Positions 14,736-25,608 of a stretch of DNA of 64,000 nt are shown here, one piece after another (the first letter of the stretch is position 1; every line of letters starts with the position of its first letter). A model generated the notes under the pieces. The model searched no databases and had not been told where the DNA came from. It saw only the letters and a program-made list of their open reading frames with translations. A program made the position numbers and the translations under genes. This DNA comes from Sulfurimonas autotrophica DSM 16294. Its GTDB lineage: Bacteria; Campylobacterota; Campylobacteria; Campylobacterales; Sulfurimonadaceae. The DNA is taken from contig NC_014506.1 in NCBI RefSeq assembly GCF_000147355.1, forward strand, positions 2,046,001 to 2,110,000. Direction: 5' to 3'.

Positions 14736-16415
14736 TTAACTAATTATATATTTATCTCGTCCTGTTTGTTTTGCCATATAGAGCGCATCATCGACTCTTT
14801 TAAATATACTCTCCTCCGTATCACCCGCAATATAAGCAGTCAATCCAAATGATGCACACAGTTGTGGTGCAGGCGCAAAAGATGTTTTTGCAATCTCTTT
14901 TTGAAGTTTTTTTGTCAGTTTTTCAAGTTCTTTATTGCCGGCATGGTTGGCAATAATTATAAATTCCTCTCCGCCCCATCTTGCCACAAAATCATCTTCT
15001 CTTACATACTCTTTAAGTATAGAAGCAAAAATTTTGAGCACCTCATCGCCTACATTATGACCATACTTATCATTCACGCGTTTGAAAAAATCTATATCCA
15101 TCATAATGAGCCCAAATTTATCCCCGTATCTTTGTGCACTTTTTATTTTTTTTTCTAGTATTCGCTTATATTCACTTCTATTATATAAAGATGTCAGACT
15201 ATCATGCGTCGAAATATTTTCAAGTTCCTGTGTTGTCACTTTTACCAAATTTGTCAGTGCTTTTCTAATAGGATCAAAATGGTTGAGTGCACCTTTTTTC
15301 AACTTTTTTTTGAGAACTTTTTTCGATTCTGAGAGCATCATAAAAGTTGTCGTCACATTTAAGAGTTCGACAATTTTTCTAGAATGAAAAAACTCTCCAA
15401 AAGTGAAAAACCCAACTGCAGGAGCTAATGAATTGAGTATATTTATCTCATCCATTAGTTTATTTTGTAGCAGTGCTTTTCTTGCCACACAAGAATAAAC
15501 ATACACTGCTTCGGCAGGTATACTTTGAAATTTTTCAAAATAAACATCCAAATTACTTATTAAATCTTCAATATTTGCAAAACTAAAACGCACTTTGTCA
15601 CCCTCTTCAAATTTACCTCCAAAAATCAGGCCATTATCATTTGTAACTCCAACAGGATCTCTTGCAACTAGCAAAACCTCTTTATTTAAAACAAGCGGAA
15701 AAGGCATACATGATGCGGGCATATTCTTGACAACATCTTCTCCAAGGTATTTTCTATAAATATCTATAATAGGAATACCATCAAGTTCGTATAAAACATT
15801 GTCCTTAGTTTTTGTCACTTCCATCTCTCTGCCGACAGCAGTCCACTGAAAAATATAGTCACTATTCACAATCAAATCATTGCTGCTAATCGTTGCAATC
15901 ACACAGCCGTTGTCCGTTAACTCTTCTTCTGTAAAGACATAAGTCTGCTTAAACTCTTTGTCTCCTGCTCTTCCACCGGCAATGACCATCTCAGGCTTGA
16001 GGTTACATACAGATTTTAAAAAAGTCTCTGCATCACTTTTCAGTCCGTCACTAAAGATAATCATCGCTTTTGTATCATCAAAAATCAAATCATTTTTAAT
16101 ATCTTCTAAATTAAATGTTTTATCAAATTTATATAACTTGGACATGACTTTTGAACTTTTAAAAACACCAAACGAGAGCACAACACCCTCTTCAAGCATC
16201 TCACCATCAAAAATCTCTCCGTTAGTCGTTGTACCAATAATATTTGCATGTGGAAGCTTCTCTTTGAGTATTCGAGATATCTTCATAAAAATATCAATAT
16301 CTACAACACCGCTGAAAATTTGAACAAAAAGATTCTTCGCCTCATCTATGGGATGTAATGTAATAAATTCATCTAATGATTTCTCATCTTGAAATAACAT
16401 ATTAAAACTTTTCAT
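14736..16415 (-). CDS. FIST domain diguanylate cyclase
   Basis: About 559 residues. The N-terminal two thirds are FIST_N and FIST_C sensory domains, thought to bind small ligands such as amino acids. The C-terminal GGDEF domain has ARWGGEEF and should make c-di-GMP; the SLTSLYNRSEY start is typical. The start is taken at ATG 16415 (MKSFNML), since the ORF open to 16487 runs through the divergent promoter region; no strong Shine-Dalgarno is seen, so the start is uncertain. It faces away from the ABC-F gene. Confidence 0.85.
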   Translation of the reverse strand: MKSFNMLFQDEKSLDEFITLHPIDEAKNLFVQIFSGVVDIDIFMKISRILKEKLPHANIIGTTTNGEIFDGEMLEEGVVLSFGVFKSSKVMSKLYKFDKTFNLEDIKNDLIFDDTKAMIIFSDGLKSDAETFLKSVCNLKPEMVIAGGRAGDKEFKQTYVFTEEELTDNGCVIATISSNDLIVNSDYIFQWTAVGREMEVTKTKDNVLYELDGIPIIDIYRKYLGEDVVKNMPASCMPFPLVLNKEVLLVARDPVGVTNDNGLIFGGKFEEGDKVRFSFANIEDLISNLDVYFEKFQSIPAEAVYVYSCVARKALLQNKLMDEINILNSLAPAVGFFTFGEFFHSRKIVELLNVTTTFMMLSESKKVLKKKLKKGALNHFDPIRKALTNLVKVTTQELENISTHDSLTSLYNRSEYKRILEKKIKSAQRYGDKFGLIMMDIDFFKRVNDKYGHNVGDEVLKIFASILKEYVREDDFVARWGGEEFIIIANHAGNKELEKLTKKLQKEIAKTSFAPAPQLCASFGLTAYIAGDTEESIFKRVDDALYMAKQTGRDKYIIS

Positions 16416-16478
16416 ATGTTCATTATAACTTATAACAAATAAATAGTGCTTAAAGTGATTTTGTGTACACTTGCACTT

Positions 16479-18314
16479 ATGATTCAACTAACAAATATTT
16501 CAAAATCTTTTACAACACAAGAACTTTTTACAAACCTTAATCTGAAGCTCAATTCAGGAAACCGTCTTGGGCTTGTCGGGCGTAATGGGAGCGGAAAGTC
16601 TACTCTTTTTAAAATCATCACAGGTGAAGACCATGCAGATGAAGGGGAAGTCATCATCCCTAAAAATTACCGTATCGGTACACTCAAACAGCATCTGAGC
16701 TTTAGTGAAAAAACACTCAAAGAAGAAGCTGCACTTGCGCTGAATGAAGAGATGCAATATGACACATACAGGGTTGAGAAAATTCTTTTCGGACTTGGCT
16801 TCAGTGTAGATGATTTGGACAAAGATCCGCTTTCCTTCTCAGGCGGCTATCAAATACGCATAAATCTTGCAAAGCTATTAGTCACAGAACCCAATTTATT
16901 ATTGCTCGATGAACCGACCAACTATCTTGATATTGTTTCTTTGCGCTGGCTGCAGACATTTTTAAGAAATTTTGACGGCGAAGTAATACTGATAACCCAC
17001 GACAGAAACTTCATGGACGCCGTTTGCACGCACACAGCCGGAATAGTGCGAAAAAATATTAAAATGGTCGAAGGCAGTACACATAAATTTTATGCCCAGC
17101 TCCAAGCAGATGATGAACTCCACCAAAAACAAAAACTCTCCCAAGACAAAAAAGTAAAAGAGCTTGAGGAGTTCATAGCCAAAAACAAAGCCCGTGCCTC
17201 TACGGCTTCACTTGCACAGTCCAAGGTAAAACAGCTCCAAAAGATGGACCGACTCGAAGACCTAAACTTGGATACATCTCTCGCTTTTAACTTTAACTAC
17301 AAAGAGACACCTGCAAAAGTGCTTCTTGATGTCAAAGATTTGAGTTTTGGCTACAATCCTGATACCCCGCTTTTTCAAAATATTTCATTTACGCTGGCAA
17401 AAGGTGAAACACTCGGCATCATCGGGAAAAACGGTAAAGGAAAATCAACCCTTTTAAACACCATTGCAGGCGAACTCAAACCAAACAGCGGAGAAATAAA
17501 TTTTAATGCCTCCACAAAATTTGCCCACTTCGGGCAGACAAATATAGCCCATCTAAGCCCTGACAATACCATCATGGATGAAATTTACAATGCCAACGCA
17601 AAACTCAGTGAAGCAAATGTCAGAAGTATCTGCGGGGCGATGATGTTCAGCGGCGAGAGTGCCGAGAAAAAAATTTCACTGCTCTCAGGCGGCGAAAAAA
17701 GCCGCGTTATGCTTGGACAGATCATAGCCAAAGATGTAAATCTGCTGCTTTTAGATGAACCGACAAATCACCTCGATATGCAAAGCATAGAAGCCCTCAC
17801 AAACGCTATAAACAACTTTCAAGGCTCAAGCATCATCGTAACCCACTCCGAAGAGTTGTTGCGCCGTGTATGTGACCGACTTATCATTTTTGCAAAAGAG
17901 GGAGCAGAGTATTTTGACGGCGGATATGATGACTTTTTGGCAAAAATCGGCTGGGAAGATCAAGAGGAAACAGAAGAAAAAGTAAAAGAGGCACCAAAAT
18001 CAAACCATAAAGAAAATAAAAAACTTCGCGCCGAGCTTATACGAGAGCGCAATAAACTCACTTCCCCACTTAAGAAAAAAGTCGATAAACTTGAAGACAA
18101 AATCATGGAACTTGAAAACACGCTTTCACTCAAGCATGAAGAGCTTGTAGAAGCTTCAAATGCAGGAGACAGTGCTACTTTGATGGAACTCTCAAAAACC
18201 GTCTCAGCAATGGAAAATCAAGTTGAGACAATGTTTGAAGAGTTAGAGCTCCAGCAGACGGCACTTGATGACATCATGCAGGAGTATGATGAAAAAATAC
18301 AAATCACTAAGTAA
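16479..18314 (+). CDS. ABC-F family ATPase
   Basis: A 611-residue soluble protein with two ABC domains. Walker A motifs are GRNGSGKST and GKNGKGKST, signatures are FSGGYQ and LSGGEKSR, and both Walker B motifs read LLLLDEPTN. A linker (P-site tRNA interaction region) and a C-terminal coiled coil are present, as in Uup-like members. ABC-F proteins act on the ribosome and have no membrane domain. The start ATG 16479 (MIQLTNISKSF) fits the family. Its end overlaps the convergent gene by 8 nt. Confidence 0.88.
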   Translation: MIQLTNISKSFTTQELFTNLNLKLNSGNRLGLVGRNGSGKSTLFKIITGEDHADEGEVIIPKNYRIGTLKQHLSFSEKTLKEEAALALNEEMQYDTYRVEKILFGLGFSVDDLDKDPLSFSGGYQIRINLAKLLVTEPNLLLLDEPTNYLDIVSLRWLQTFLRNFDGEVILITHDRNFMDAVCTHTAGIVRKNIKMVEGSTHKFYAQLQADDELHQKQKLSQDKKVKELEEFIAKNKARASTASLAQSKVKQLQKMDRLEDLNLDTSLAFNFNYKETPAKVLLDVKDLSFGYNPDTPLFQNISFTLAKGETLGIIGKNGKGKSTLLNTIAGELKPNSGEINFNASTKFAHFGQTNIAHLSPDNTIMDEIYNANAKLSEANVRSICGAMMFSGESAEKKISLLSGGEKSRVMLGQIIAKDVNLLLLDEPTNHLDMQSIEALTNAINNFQGSSIIVTHSEELLRRVCDRLIIFAKEGAEYFDGGYDDFLAKIGWEDQEETEEKVKEAPKSNHKENKKLRAELIRERNKLTSPLKKKVDKLEDKIMELENTLSLKHEELVEASNAGDSATLMELSKTVSAMENQVETMFEELELQQTALDDIMQEYDEKIQITK

Positions 18315-20484
18315 TATATATATTGGTAGTATTTCTTCCCGACTTTTTGGCCTGATAAAGAGCTTTATCTGCTCTTTCTAAAATTGTTTTTACATCTTTG
18401 TCATAAGTTATATCTAAACTTGAAATACCAATACTCACACTATACTTTATTGTCGTAGTATTATCTATGATAACACTGGAATTACAAATCTTTTCACGAA
18501 ATCTCTCGGCAAATTCATAAGCACCTTCACTATTAGTCTCAGGAAGCATTACCGCAAATTCTTCTCCGCCGATTCTGGCAACCACATCTAAATGTCTAGC
18601 CATCTTCAGGCATATAGATGAAAAATGTTTAAGCACTTCATCTCCTACGGCATGTCCATAAGTATCGTTCACCTGCTTAAAATGGTCAATATCAAGCATT
18701 AAAAAGCTTAAATCCCTTTTATATCGGGTAGCGCGTTCAAGCTCTAAAGCAAAGAGCTCTTCACCTTTACGACGATTAACTGCACCCGTTAAGGGGTCAA
18801 TAAATGCCATCTCTTCAAGTTGTAGATTTTCTTTTTGTTTGTTTTTTAATTCTATCTCTTTTTGATTGAGGTACATCTGTGTGTATATATCACCTTTAAG
18901 AAGATTTTGTCTTGTTATCTCATAAGCATCATATATATAAGCCATCTCATCTCTATGCAGTTTTATCGGAGAAAGTCTTAAACTTCTCCCTCCTCTTGCC
19001 AGATTTTTCATTGCTTTTGTTAGTTGTTCTATCTGTAACTTTGTGCTGCTCCTAAAAGTATATAATATGAATAAAGTTATAAAAAGTATAAACGTATTAA
19101 ATATAATCCATATAATAAAATTTATGACCGTATCATCTATTTGAGTTTCAACATATGTATTAATATCTGATGTACATTTATCTTCAAATAACTTAACTCT
19201 ATTGATAAATTCTGTTGTTAACTTAAACCAGTTCTTAGAATCTAAGTTACCAAAATGATAATTTCTAATATCTTTTTCATCCTTGTTAATCTTTTTTATC
19301 TTTATGGAAGACATAATGGAATTAACAGTTGTTTTTTGTGCTTTAGTAGCTGTATTGTTAAACATATATAAAAAAGTATCCCGCCTGCTTAATAATTGCA
19401 TAAAAGCAATATATTCTTCTGCACTTGCATTTTTATTTTCTAATATAATTGTTCCGTATGCTCTTTCCAGTCCAAGAGATTCTTTGAAGTTTTGAAGAGC
19501 TGATAATGTAATTATAGAAGAAGACAACTCTTTAGTAATTTTTAATGATGCTAATTTTGGGGTTATCTCAAGCATATCCTTTATTATATTTGTATAAATA
19601 CTTATTGCTTTCTTTTTAGATACTGTTCTATTGTCAATTTTTTTACGAACATTTGCTAAAAGTACTCTATTCTTGCTAAATATTTTTATATATGGCTCTA
19701 TAGGTATTGCACTGAAAGTTGAACTGGTATTTATTTTATTTATAAATGCTATTAATTTTTTATCAACTATTTTTCTTTCTTTTTGTAAAGCATCTTTGAA
19801 TTTCCCTTCTCTTGAACTTAAACTACCGCTGCTTAAACCTCTTTCAATTTGCAAATTGTGTATAAGATCATTTGTATATGGAATAACACTTGTAATTGTA
19901 TATATCTTTTTCATATCTAAATACTTATTGAAATTAGCAAATATAACAATAGAACCAAAAAGCAGCATTCCCATAAAAGGAATCAAAACAGAGAAAAATA
20001 TCCGCTTTGTAAAACTAAACTTATCAGTCGTTTTTTTACTTAATCTTGCAAAAAAAGAGGTATCAGCCTCCTCTTTTTTTTGATTTAAATCACATTCTCC
20101 AAGAGCATTAATAGCTGAAATATTGTCTTCTATAATATGACTGACTAACCATTCTGTTAAAAATAAACTAATTTCTTGAAATATTTCATAATTTTGCAAA
20201 GATGCTAATTTCTTTTTTAAATTTACAATTTTATTATTAAATATATGCTGCTTGGCTTTATACTCTTTAAGCTTTATGCATCCACATTTTCTTAAATACT
20301 CCTCTTCTCGTCTATAGTGACTTTGGGTATAGGATTGTAATTGTGTAAATTTCTCTGCAATGATATTAGCTGCCATATCCTTGTTTATAGCATCTAACAG
20401 TTCATTTATAATATTTAACAGTTGCTTATGGTCATCATCTAAATCTTTTATACCAAGATTTAAGCCTTCATTCCATTCTATCAT
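18307..20484 (-). CDS. Hemerythrin-NIT-GGDEF diguanylate cyclase
   Basis: A 725-residue membrane protein. The N-terminal hemerythrin domain has probable di-iron ligands His19, His56, Glu60, His80, His116 and Asp120, so it may sense O2 or NO. A membrane helix near residues 155-180 precedes a NIT-like region (NLQIERGLSSGSL), which in other proteins senses nitrate/nitrite. A second helix near 450, a HAMP-like linker and a C-terminal GGDEF domain (ARIGGEEF) follow. It starts 11 nt after the MCP stop, so it is probably in the same riboswitch-controlled operon. Confidence 0.87.
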   Translation of the reverse strand: MIEWNEGLNLGIKDLDDDHKQLLNIINELLDAINKDMAANIIAEKFTQLQSYTQSHYRREEEYLRKCGCIKLKEYKAKQHIFNNKIVNLKKKLASLQNYEIFQEISLFLTEWLVSHIIEDNISAINALGECDLNQKKEEADTSFFARLSKKTTDKFSFTKRIFFSVLIPFMGMLLFGSIVIFANFNKYLDMKKIYTITSVIPYTNDLIHNLQIERGLSSGSLSSREGKFKDALQKERKIVDKKLIAFINKINTSSTFSAIPIEPYIKIFSKNRVLLANVRKKIDNRTVSKKKAISIYTNIIKDMLEITPKLASLKITKELSSSIITLSALQNFKESLGLERAYGTIILENKNASAEEYIAFMQLLSRRDTFLYMFNNTATKAQKTTVNSIMSSIKIKKINKDEKDIRNYHFGNLDSKNWFKLTTEFINRVKLFEDKCTSDINTYVETQIDDTVINFIIWIIFNTFILFITLFILYTFRSSTKLQIEQLTKAMKNLARGGRSLRLSPIKLHRDEMAYIYDAYEITRQNLLKGDIYTQMYLNQKEIELKNKQKENLQLEEMAFIDPLTGAVNRRKGEELFALELERATRYKRDLSFLMLDIDHFKQVNDTYGHAVGDEVLKHFSSICLKMARHLDVVARIGGEEFAVMLPETNSEGAYEFAERFREKICNSSVIIDNTTTIKYSVSIGISSLDITYDKDVKTILERADKALYQAKKSGRNTTNIYIT

Positions 20485-20495
20485 AATATAAATTT

Positions 20496-22730
20496 TTATT
20501 TATTATATTCTAAAAGCATTTGATTTAAGAGTAAAAATAATTTATCGCTATTCGCTTCCATCACTTTTAAGTTCTGAACAATTGTATCTTCATTCTTTAT
20601 TCTTAAATCTTCATTTTCATAAAAAACAATACATTTATGTACGCTCTCATGAACAGCTTTATGTGGTGCAAGAGCTGATTTATAAGCATCTGTACGTCCA
20701 AAACGCTCTTTACCGTCACTCGCATACCATTTCCCCAGTCTGCACGCTGTATATGAGCCGAATGATTTACTTTTATCTGCTGTTATAATGGCATCATATG
20801 CATTTGCTTTATAAATAATATGGTCAATTTTGGCTAAAACGATAAAGACCTTGTTCTCCATATCATGTACAACACCGGCCATCTCAGTTGCTTCTGTATT
20901 TAAGCCGCTCATAGTAGTATTGAAATTTTTAACAGAGCTTGAAGTTTCGTTTGCAAGTGAGGTCATAGTTTCTGATTTATCCAAGCTGATGCTAGCCTCT
21001 TGTTTCATTGAGTTGATAGAGATAGTAATCTCACTCGTCGCTTTTTGAGTTCTCTCTGCAAGTTTTCTTACCTCATCGGCAACAACGGCAAACCCGCGTC
21101 CGTGCTCACCTGCACGAGCAGCTTCTATAGCCGCATTAAGAGCGAGCAGGTTTGTCTGTTCCGCAATATCTTTTATTAAATCAACTACAGAAGTAATCTC
21201 ATTTGTTTTCTCATTAAGCTCTTCTATCGATGAATTGCTGTCGTTAATATGTTCAACAAGTATTTGCAGTTTCTCTAAAATGTTTGCTACTTCAACCATG
21301 GAAGCGTTTGAAGTTTCAGCAGTGCGTTTAGTTGTCGTTTGAACTTCACTTAACTCTTGTATAATACTGCTTATTTCATCTTGAATAAGTTCAAGTCCCT
21401 TGCCGGTACTGCCGACTGCCCTGACATTTGAATTAAAATTAATAATCTTTTGCTTTTCATTGGCTTCTTTCATAGCATTTATACCATCTTTAACATTATG
21501 AATTGCCTCAGCGAAGTCTCCATGCATTCCATCGTCATTAAGATCATAACTGAAATCTCCCTTAGAAGCTTTGTGAACTGAAATATTAATTCTGCTTGTC
21601 AAATCTTGTATTAAACTGACCAAAACAGCAAGCAGATGTGTTATCTCATCCATTTCATCCCGTGCTTTTGTTCTTCTGTCTATAATAATCGACAAATCGC
21701 CTTTTGTTGTTATATCTTCAATCGTTCTTTTAAAGTTACATATAGAACCTGATATCCCATTTGATACATTTCTCGTTATATATAATCCAAACAAAACCAC
21801 TGCAATTGACAATAAAGATACAAGGAGAAGCAGATAAAATGATGATGTAACCATTGATGCCGCTTTATTTATAGTATATTTCGCCAAAGTATCTTCAAAC
21901 TCTTTTAGTTTATTGATTTTTTTCGTTATTGTTTTAAACCAGGCTGTTGGATCAACACCGAAATTTTTCTCATGTGATGAAGCTATATCTCTGTACTTTT
22001 GTACTTCTACAAATGAAATGTCCGACTTTGTTTTATTATATGCTTTTCGTATATCGTCATTTGCAGTATGTAAAAAAAGATTTGTTAATGCCTTTTGTTG
22101 TGATACCAAAGAAGCAAATTTTGCCGCAGTTGCTCTTGTAAAAGAATTTTTTCCAAAAACACTGGAAAGAACGGCACGCTCAATCCCTGCACGTTCTTTG
22201 GAACTAATGAAAATTACAAAACTATTAAAGTTTGTTCTTAAGTCTTTATCTCGTGGAATTGTTGAAAAATGAGAAATAGTATCTATAATTTTTTTATTAA
22301 GAGCTGTGTAAAATTTTACGGCACCGCTTACCTGAATTGTTTGAGATCTTACTTTAGTTCTCATTGCCGGCACCGAATCTAAATCTATCTCATTAGTTAC
22401 CTGTATTGAAGCATCAGACGGATTTACCCTTATAAATTCTTTAAGTTCTTTGATTTTAACATCTGTAGAGCTATATTGGTTGGGAAGTATATTTACAAAT
22501 TTTGTTCCCTTTGAGCCTAAAAACCCAGCACTTGCACCGCGCTCTTTTTGCAGTTCATGTAAAACAGCACTCATCTTCACAGACAACTTTATAAGAGAAG
22601 CTGTCTCTTTGATATTTTCATAATTATTCCATGTATCATAAAAATTTTTTATTGAAAACAAAGTAATAACAGAAAGTAGGACGACACTTAAAAAAATAAG
22701 TTTACCCCTGATGGTCAGGTTATTTATCAT
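20496..22730 (-). CDS. Methyl-accepting chemotaxis protein, NIT plus CZB domains
   Basis: A 744-residue chemoreceptor with an N-terminal membrane helix, a NIT-type periplasmic domain ([14 protein letters not shown]), a second helix near 310 and a HAMP-like region. The MCP signalling tip contains [23 protein letters not shown]-terminal CZB domain carries RLGKWY and HKAVHESVH zinc ligands. NIT domains sense nitrate or nitrite. The ribosome site AAAGGGGA at 22735-22742 can be paired by CCCCTTTT from the upstream riboswitch. The next gene also has NIT. Confidence 0.88.
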
Positions 22731-22734
22731 TCTA

Positions 22735-22862
22735 TCCCCTTTAATCTAATTTGCTAAAAAATTATAAAAAGGGGAAAGGGAATCGCAACCCGACAATCTT
22801 AATTTACTAATTAAGACTCAAAGCTTTCCGTCCTTATTTCACAATAAGTTTGGCAAATTATA
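22735..22862 (-). promoter_or_regulatory. c-di-GMP-I (GEMM) riboswitch with ribosome-site sequestering platform
   Basis: The minus-strand RNA from about 22862 to 22783 has the GEMM-I layout. A TGCCAAAC segment comes first, then a P2 stem CTTATT-GTGA-AATAAG with a GNRA loop, then GGACGGAAAGC (consensus GGACGCAAAGC). A long P3 stem (TCTTAATT with AATTAAGA) and GGGTTGC follow. Downstream, CCCCTTTT (22774-22767) is complementary to the ribosome site AAAGGGGA (22742-22735) of the MCP gene. This suggests control of translation by c-di-GMP. Confidence 0.8.
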
Positions 22863-22966
22863 GTTTAATAACACGTGCTAGCAGTCTATAAAAAATAGCC
22901 TTAAACATTTATGAAAAAATTTGTTATTTTTACGTCATTTTAAAATTAACATATTTACTGCCTGAT

Positions 22967-24357: not shown

Positions 24358-25608
24358 TTAGGAATCATTCTCCCCAGCATTTTCAAATTCACTGACATGT
24401 TCTATGGCTTGTATTACAAGATTTTTGATACTACCCTTGCCAAGCTTGTGCTTTCGCTCAAATACCATCACCTCATCCACATCAAAAGATTCTGTTGCTC
24501 GTACAACTGCATATATTTCACCTAAAAAACCCTTGTCATCTAAAACAGCCTCTTTGACTGAATCGGAGACATGAATTCCCTCAAGCACCTCACTCATTTT
24601 CATACTAAAAAGTGTATCCATTAATGACAAAACACCTACCATATATGCTTCGCCGAGCATATTGCTCCGCACTCCGGGTTCAACTTCTTTGAGTATCTCT
24701 TGCATTAAATAAGTTCTGTTTATTACCATTAGCATAAGCGGAGAGTGTTTGTCTATTTTAGAAACAGATTTTGAATATATGAGAAGCATCAGCCATCTTC
24801 CCAACGGAATTCTTCCCAAAAGAATTAAAACATGGTGTAGTGAAGATATTCTTTTCCTAAAATGAAAGGCTGCCGAGTTCATAAACTGCAGCAACTGCAC
24901 TGTAATCTCAGGATTTTTTTCAAATTCTGATGTAATTTCATCAATATTTACATCCTGCATCAAAAGATTATAAAGTTTAAGGACATTTAACTGAAATGGT
25001 TCATACTTTGCATTTTCCAAAATTATCGGTTTAGCAAAGAAATAGCCCTCAAAATAGTCGCAGCCTACACTTTTTGCAAGCTCATAGGTTTTATTATTTT
25101 CTATTTTTGTTGCTATGACTTCAATCTGGCTTACATGTAACTCTGCTATTAAATCTGCGATATCATAGGATGCAAGTACATCAAAGTTTATTTTTACAAA
25201 AGAGAGCTGATGAAGGATATCTCTATATTTTTGCATAAATTCATCATTTAAATCGGTATCGTTAATGGCAAGTTCGTACCCCTGTTGATGCAATTCATCA
25301 ATTCTGTGGACAACCTTTTCGCTTAAATTTATATCTGCAAAAAGAGAAAATATAAAAAACTCTTTTGGAATTGTAAAAACAATATCATTGAGCAAAAATC
25401 TTTCATCTACTTTTACAAATGCTTTTTTATCACCAAGCAAAGTTTTTGTTCCAAACTTGTTCAAAATACTTGTTATTACAGAGGCACTCGCTGCGATATT
25501 GCTATGGACATGACTTTTTTTATCTGCATCTCTGTATAAAATTTCATAATAATATATATCTTCGTCTTTATTTAATATTGGTTGTCTTGCCAAATAAACA
25601 CTGTCCAT
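24358..25608 (-). CDS. EAL-HDOD (YuxH-type) signalling protein
   Basis: A 416-residue protein. The N-terminal EAL-like domain starts ARQPILNKDEDIYYYEILYRD and reads YEILYR where active enzymes have EALxR, so phosphodiesterase activity is unlikely. A C-terminal HDOD domain covers about residues 205-400 (LLQFMNSAAFHFRKRISSLHHVLILLG in two parts). Such proteins are usually c-di-GMP binding or protein-interaction modules. It is separate from the downstream dbpA. Confidence 0.85.
   Translation of the reverse strand: MDSVYLARQPILNKDEDIYYYEILYRDADKKSHVHSNIAASASVITSILNKFGTKTLLGDKKAFVKVDERFLLNDIVFTIPKEFFIFSLFADINLSEKVVHRIDELHQQGYELAINDTDLNDEFMQKYRDILHQLSFVKINFDVLASYDIADLIAELHVSQIEVIATKIENNKTYELAKSVGCDYFEGYFFAKPIILENAKYEPFQLNVLKLYNLLMQDVNIDEITSEFEKNPEITVQLLQFMNSAAFHFRKRISSLHHVLILLGRIPLGRWLMLLIYSKSVSKIDKHSPLMLMVINRTYLMQEILKEVEPGVRSNMLGEAYMVGVLSLMDTLFSMKMSEVLEGIHVSDSVKEAVLDDKGFLGEIYAVVRATESFDVDEVMVFERKHKLGKGSIKNLVIQAIEHVSEFENAGENDS

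Follow-up and report, generated by a model that had tools for sequence, protein, structure and literature searches.

A GEMM-I riboswitch aptamer in the leader of a chemoreceptor gene followed by a diguanylate cyclase gene in Sulfurimonas autotrophica

We identified a c-di-GMP-I (GEMM-I) riboswitch aptamer in the 64-kb stretch of Sulfurimonas autotrophica DNA analysed here (the window), 50 nt upstream of the start of a chemoreceptor (MCP) gene that is followed at short distance by a gene for a diguanylate cyclase (DGC). Judged by its sequence, the element is genuine and adds to a riboswitch class already known; the arrangement of its genes is recent and of interest. The reading that we favour, with reasonable though not high confidence, is a c-di-GMP-responsive OFF leader that would control the receptor, with a newly captured cyclase following by translational coupling. 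If true, a single RNA element links how much of one specific chemoreceptor and of a cyclase is made to the motile/sessile signal of a sulfur oxidiser from the deep sea. The original prediction stands as regards an aptamer before the receptor gene, a platform that sequesters the Shine-Dalgarno (SD) sequence and a probable operon; its nitrate sensor is unsupported and its feedback loop is not conserved. The relevant features are the following.

22781 to 22864, minus strand: c-di-GMP-I (GEMM-I) riboswitch aptamer (RF01051, 56.9 bits; covariation in 64 genus aptamers).
22768 to 22775, minus strand: anti-SD arm UCCCCUUU (22774 to 22767 reads CCCCUUUU), predicted to pair with the SD at -15.8 kcal/mol.
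22735 to 22742, minus strand: SD arm AAAGGGGA of the MCP gene (SD AAAGGGG, 22742 to 22736; sequence and duplex computation).
20496 to 22730, minus strand: chemoreceptor with NIT, MCPsignal and CZB domains, 744 aa (Pfam; CZB ligands H637, C663, H690, H694).
20485 to 20495, minus strand: 11-nt gap between the MCP and DGC genes, with neither SD nor terminator (sequence and terminator scan).
18307 to 20484, minus strand: hemerythrin-NIT-GGDEF diguanylate cyclase, 725 aa (Pfam, motifs, orthologue columns).

A cmscan search of the whole window against all of Rfam gave a sole match at the gathering cut-off, to RF01051 on the minus strand, covering the full model (1-87) and scoring 56.9 bits, far over the 35 bits of that cut-off; it is also the only GEMM-I element at cut-off in the whole genome. 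A search of 22735-22900 with this covariance model had been proposed as a check on the predicted aptamer, whose earlier bounds (22783-22862) proved correct to within 2 nt. The aptamer has a GUGA loop, of the GNRA form of RF01051, and a P1 helix that is short and poorly formed in appearance. Across 64 distinct Sulfurimonas aptamers, 98.4% of the cells in the Rfam helices are paired and 114 cells are changed on both sides, such changes occurring in 10 of the 18 pairs. This covariation was matched by none of 500 shuffles, and sliding the partner strand by 1-3 columns brought pairing down to 21-48%; both the helices and the core of RF01051 are thus conserved, with covariation. The first core pair is C-G in 61 of the 64, and likewise in all 25 other phylum loci read, whereas the Rfam consensus is G-C.

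Rfam position 11, which in our own mapping is equivalent to G20 of Vc2, is a G in the window aptamer and marks it as c-di-GMP type rather than cGAMP type (A), since the G20 position sets the preference between the two (PMC9262584); c-di-GMP is therefore probably its ligand. Geobacter GEMM-I/GEMM-Ib elements belong to the same family and precede surface and signalling genes, but many of them bind cGAMP and have an A at the G20 position (PMC8835794, PMC2996986), whereas the window aptamer keeps the G and is the only element in its genome.

Between aptamer and SD runs a pyrimidine tract, CCCCUUUU, which is complementary to the SD, and the sequence after the aptamer is indeed able to hide the ribosome site, as had been predicted. 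Tract and SD both differ in the nearest relative and again match one another, at -10.9 versus -8.2 and -8.3 kcal/mol with the arms swapped. Because in the two closest orthologues each tract fits its own SD better than the swapped arms do, an SD-blocking hairpin is probably real in these two leaders; in leader L066, the pairing is weak (p 0.33). A terminator-type platform was discarded, the regional scan having found no terminator-like site between the aptamer and the MCP gene.

In the mechanism that we propose, the aptamer sits in the 5' leader of the MCP(-DGC) transcript and would bind c-di-GMP made by the many GGDEF proteins of the cell; the bound aptamer would alter access to the MCP SD, which the tract just downstream can cover, and high c-di-GMP would mean less translation of the receptor. 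This resembles the Vc2 GEMM-I element of Vibrio cholerae, of the same family RF01051 and likewise with SD-masking downstream of the aptamer, which Inuzuka et al. 2018, as cited in PMC9262584, describe as a translational OFF switch. The window element differs from Vc2 in its C-G first core pair and in having an MCP and a DGC as targets; its OFF direction we infer by analogy with Vc2.

In the window, the computed cost of opening the SD is 12.6 kcal/mol with the aptamer formed versus 7.8 kcal/mol. The tighter closure of the SD in the aptamer-formed state argues against an ON switch, in which c-di-GMP binding would open the SD and both receptor and cyclase would be made at high c-di-GMP, in a positive loop. 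We consider such an ON switch improbable but a serious rival: elsewhere, this aptamer class includes ON as well as OFF switches (PMC9262584), the cost of opening the SD is lower with the aptamer formed in leader L077, and the free minimum of the window leader keeps the SD closed, with the 3' strand of the aptamer paired to the first part of the coding region. Against synonymous recoding, this aptamer-to-coding pairing has p 0.002 in L077 and L066; in the window it is not above the recoded sequences (p 0.11), which speaks against the ON switch there, and p ranges from 0.11 to 0.68 over all leaders apart from L077 and L066. Folding gives no consistent c-di-GMP-dependent change, the sign of the coupling between aptamer formation and SD opening differing between orthologues (+4.8, -6.7, +2.3, +4.9 and +0.6 kcal/mol in five leaders); the negative value, that of L077, is explained by a competing fold with downstream GGGGGAAA.

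Among three candidate competing pairings put through folding and shuffle or recoding controls, none was a consistent switch partner across leaders. An anti-aptamer element ("S"), GCAAAUUA in the window, is fully complementary to UAAUUUGC of the aptamer and appeared to covary in a few leaders; we dropped it as a switch strand because its pairing is not above that of dinucleotide shuffles (median p 0.58, none of 65 below 0.05, window p 0.11). Nor did the aptamer core GGAAAG, as an alternative partner of the anti-SD CUUUCC, pair better than chance in the genus as a whole (median p 0.47, window p 0.06).

The cyclase gene follows the MCP stop (at 20496) after the predicted 11 nt, and the two genes form a probable operon, because no SD is seen before the DGC in the gap and no terminator-like site was found there by the scan. 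Without an SD of its own, the cyclase would follow the receptor by translational coupling. The original prediction that this protein should make c-di-GMP agrees with its motifs: GGEEF at 639, DID at 598, N606, D615 and the I-site RHLD at 630 (PF00990, 152 bits), so that the active site, the metal- and guanine-binding residues, including those that select guanine, and the RxxD I-site are all intact. We take D615, which the cyclase keeps, to be at the position of the Ser in cGAMP-making Hypr enzymes. The Hypr Ser itself is described in PMC8835794. c-di-GMP-type genes are numerous around the operon, which is flanked by those for a FIST-GGDEF protein (14736-16487, minus strand) and an EAL-HDOD protein (24358-25608, minus strand).

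An MCP with 55% identity or more across its 330 N-terminal residues is present in 15 genus genomes, including that of the window. Five of these carry the riboswitch in the MCP leader (the window, G092, G064, G008 and G027), the riboswitch-MCP unit occurring at 75-90% MCP identity, and in nine no Rfam match at E<=1 was found in the leader. The remaining leader, that of G012 (L124), gives no Rfam match and reads AAGUCAAACUUAUUACAAAUAAGGACACAAAAUG: a remnant 5' half of the aptamer is kept, its 3' half is gone, as is the anti-SD, and AAGGA is left in the position of the SD, apparently through a deletion from one AAGGA, in the aptamer, to the next, at the SD. Decay thus occurs in this leader family, and most MCP orthologues lack the element, which would fit a window aptamer that is itself decayed and no longer responsive to c-di-GMP. 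We hold this to be very unlikely, given the full-length model match at 56.9 bits with an intact core, and given that G092 keeps core and helices while its flanks have changed. The receptor tree does not separate a single gain with losses from other histories. These relatives, with a full, half-deleted or absent riboswitch, and with or without an adjacent cyclase, make a natural series for the gain and loss of a riboswitch operon.

Only in the window and G092 is the MCP followed by a DGC orthologue. In G064, G027, G008, G012, G133, G009 and G107 the orthologue occurs elsewhere in the genome, sharing 43-50% identity across its 480 N-terminal residues and placed away from the RF01051 matches there. 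The feedback loop of the original prediction, in which the product would control its own cyclase, is weakened by this: it is not conserved and, because the DGC follows the riboswitch and MCP only in the window and one close relative, it would be recent and local. It is tempered further since the genome has 52 GGDEF domains, that of the window DGC being one, and 9 MCPsignal domains. We propose that, in S. autotrophica and one near relative, the cyclase has recently been captured as the second gene. An aptamer that binds c-di-GMP and controls the MCP only, the DGC being expressed separately without any feedback loop, is in our view a minority possibility. It would suit a DGC that is a recent neighbour with a history of its own, whose orthologues elsewhere stand alone, and the DGC of G092 has its own SD, AAAGG; the 11-nt gap of the window, lacking SD and terminator, speaks against it and for the coupled expression that we prefer. 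Between L077 and the window (18307-22730), synonymous divergence is 0.26 in the DGC and 0.45 in the adjacent MCP.

The hemerythrin domain of the cyclase, still matched by PF01814 with 33.7 bits, has lost part of its iron site. The diiron signature is H-HxxxE-HxxxH-HxxxxD (PMC9388753), comprising seven ligands (five His, one Glu and one Asp); three of the seven are replaced in the DGCs of the window and G092 (H75Y, H79Q and D121N), whereas the signature is complete in all 13 orthologous cyclases elsewhere. Because of this loss, O2/redox sensing by both operon cyclases is doubtful and an ordinary diiron site for it unlikely. The domain remains under purifying selection (dN/dS 0.23 between the two DGCs), which argues that this is not a dead gene. 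A hemerythrin-like domain on a GGDEF cyclase is also found in Bhr-DGC of V. cholerae (PMC9388753); in the window DGC, a NIT domain lies between the two and redox gating is in doubt because three of the seven ligands are replaced. With two sequences against 13, on one branch, the ligand loss is a single evolutionary event, and its tie to operon capture is a correlation. Given the damaged site, the riboswitch-set level of the DGC and its I-site may now count for more than O2 or redox input. More speculatively, and with considerable doubt, the cyclase may have come under the control of its product in exchange for its own O2/redox gate: once captured behind riboswitch and chemoreceptor, its iron site would have decayed under continued purifying selection, the levels of both proteins being set together by c-di-GMP.

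The original gene descriptions, a NIT chemoreceptor and a hemerythrin-NIT-GGDEF protein, hold as far as they go, the damaged iron site and the CZB domain of the receptor having been overlooked. The latter (PF13682, 53 bits) has a complete 3His/1Cys zinc site by Pfam and motif reading, that is, the motif of zinc-binding CZB chemoreceptors. Helicobacter pylori TlpD and Escherichia coli DgcZ have in common with our receptor a CZB domain with this zinc site, which in TlpD also stands at the C-terminal end of an MCP; in addition to what these two have, the window receptor carries a NIT domain, and TlpD is cytosolic (PMC6715182, PMC8262984). "Nitrate sensor" for the MCP is an unsupported reading of a Pfam label, NIT: in the literature consulted, the one NIT chemoreceptor domain tested, that of Pseudomonas aeruginosa PA4520, did not bind nitrate or nitrite (PMC6381276). 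In our motif scan, the PilJ N-box pattern, a mark of nitrate-binding PilJ domains, was found in neither the MCP nor the DGC protein. The genome has 9 MCP-type receptors. The dN/dS of this one is 0.11; its closest relatives by sequence are Sulfurimonas MAGs, and none were found in viral contigs.

In the genus, GEMM-I elements occur in 49 of 135 genomes, with 65 elements besides that of the window, and RF01051 matches were found in 43 of 397 genomes spread over the phylum. Their targets in genus and phylum include surface or secreted proteins (DUF4214, PSD4/DUF1592, CAP, OEP). Early GEMM papers reportedly listed chemotaxis and c-di-GMP-enzyme genes among the targets. Since other elements precede the gene of an HD-domain protein, read as HD-GYP-like, in a member of the order (L096), as well as genes of PilJ N-box proteins, GEMM-I control of signalling genes is not unusual in the phylum. 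A limited literature search found no paper on c-di-GMP riboswitches for the phylum Campylobacterota.

At the position equivalent to G20, three elements have the A of the cGAMP-type GEMM-Ib: L079:5958-6038 (minus strand), L080:3116-3197 (minus strand) and L082:213-295 (plus strand). For the first two, no ORF of at least 80 aa begins on the same strand in the next 400 nt, and the gene next to the third, about 360 nt on, is rpsB-like. In two other Campylobacterales, GEMM-I elements precede small proteins (L101:548-1327, minus strand; L103:1616-2485, plus strand) with two PilJ stretches each and the exact nitrate N-box VNEAGRQRMLTQ. A riboswitch-linked family of ~505-aa proteins, without Pfam match in the member examined (L034), recurs in Sulfurimonas (L034, L036, L043, L050, L053, L070, L072, L073 and L095). 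Moreover, many elements (L052, L054, L057, L061 and L067) stand before short, probably secreted proteins of ~90-130 aa, with a similar tract, UGCAUUUUUUCUUUAUCUAUC, just after the aptamer.
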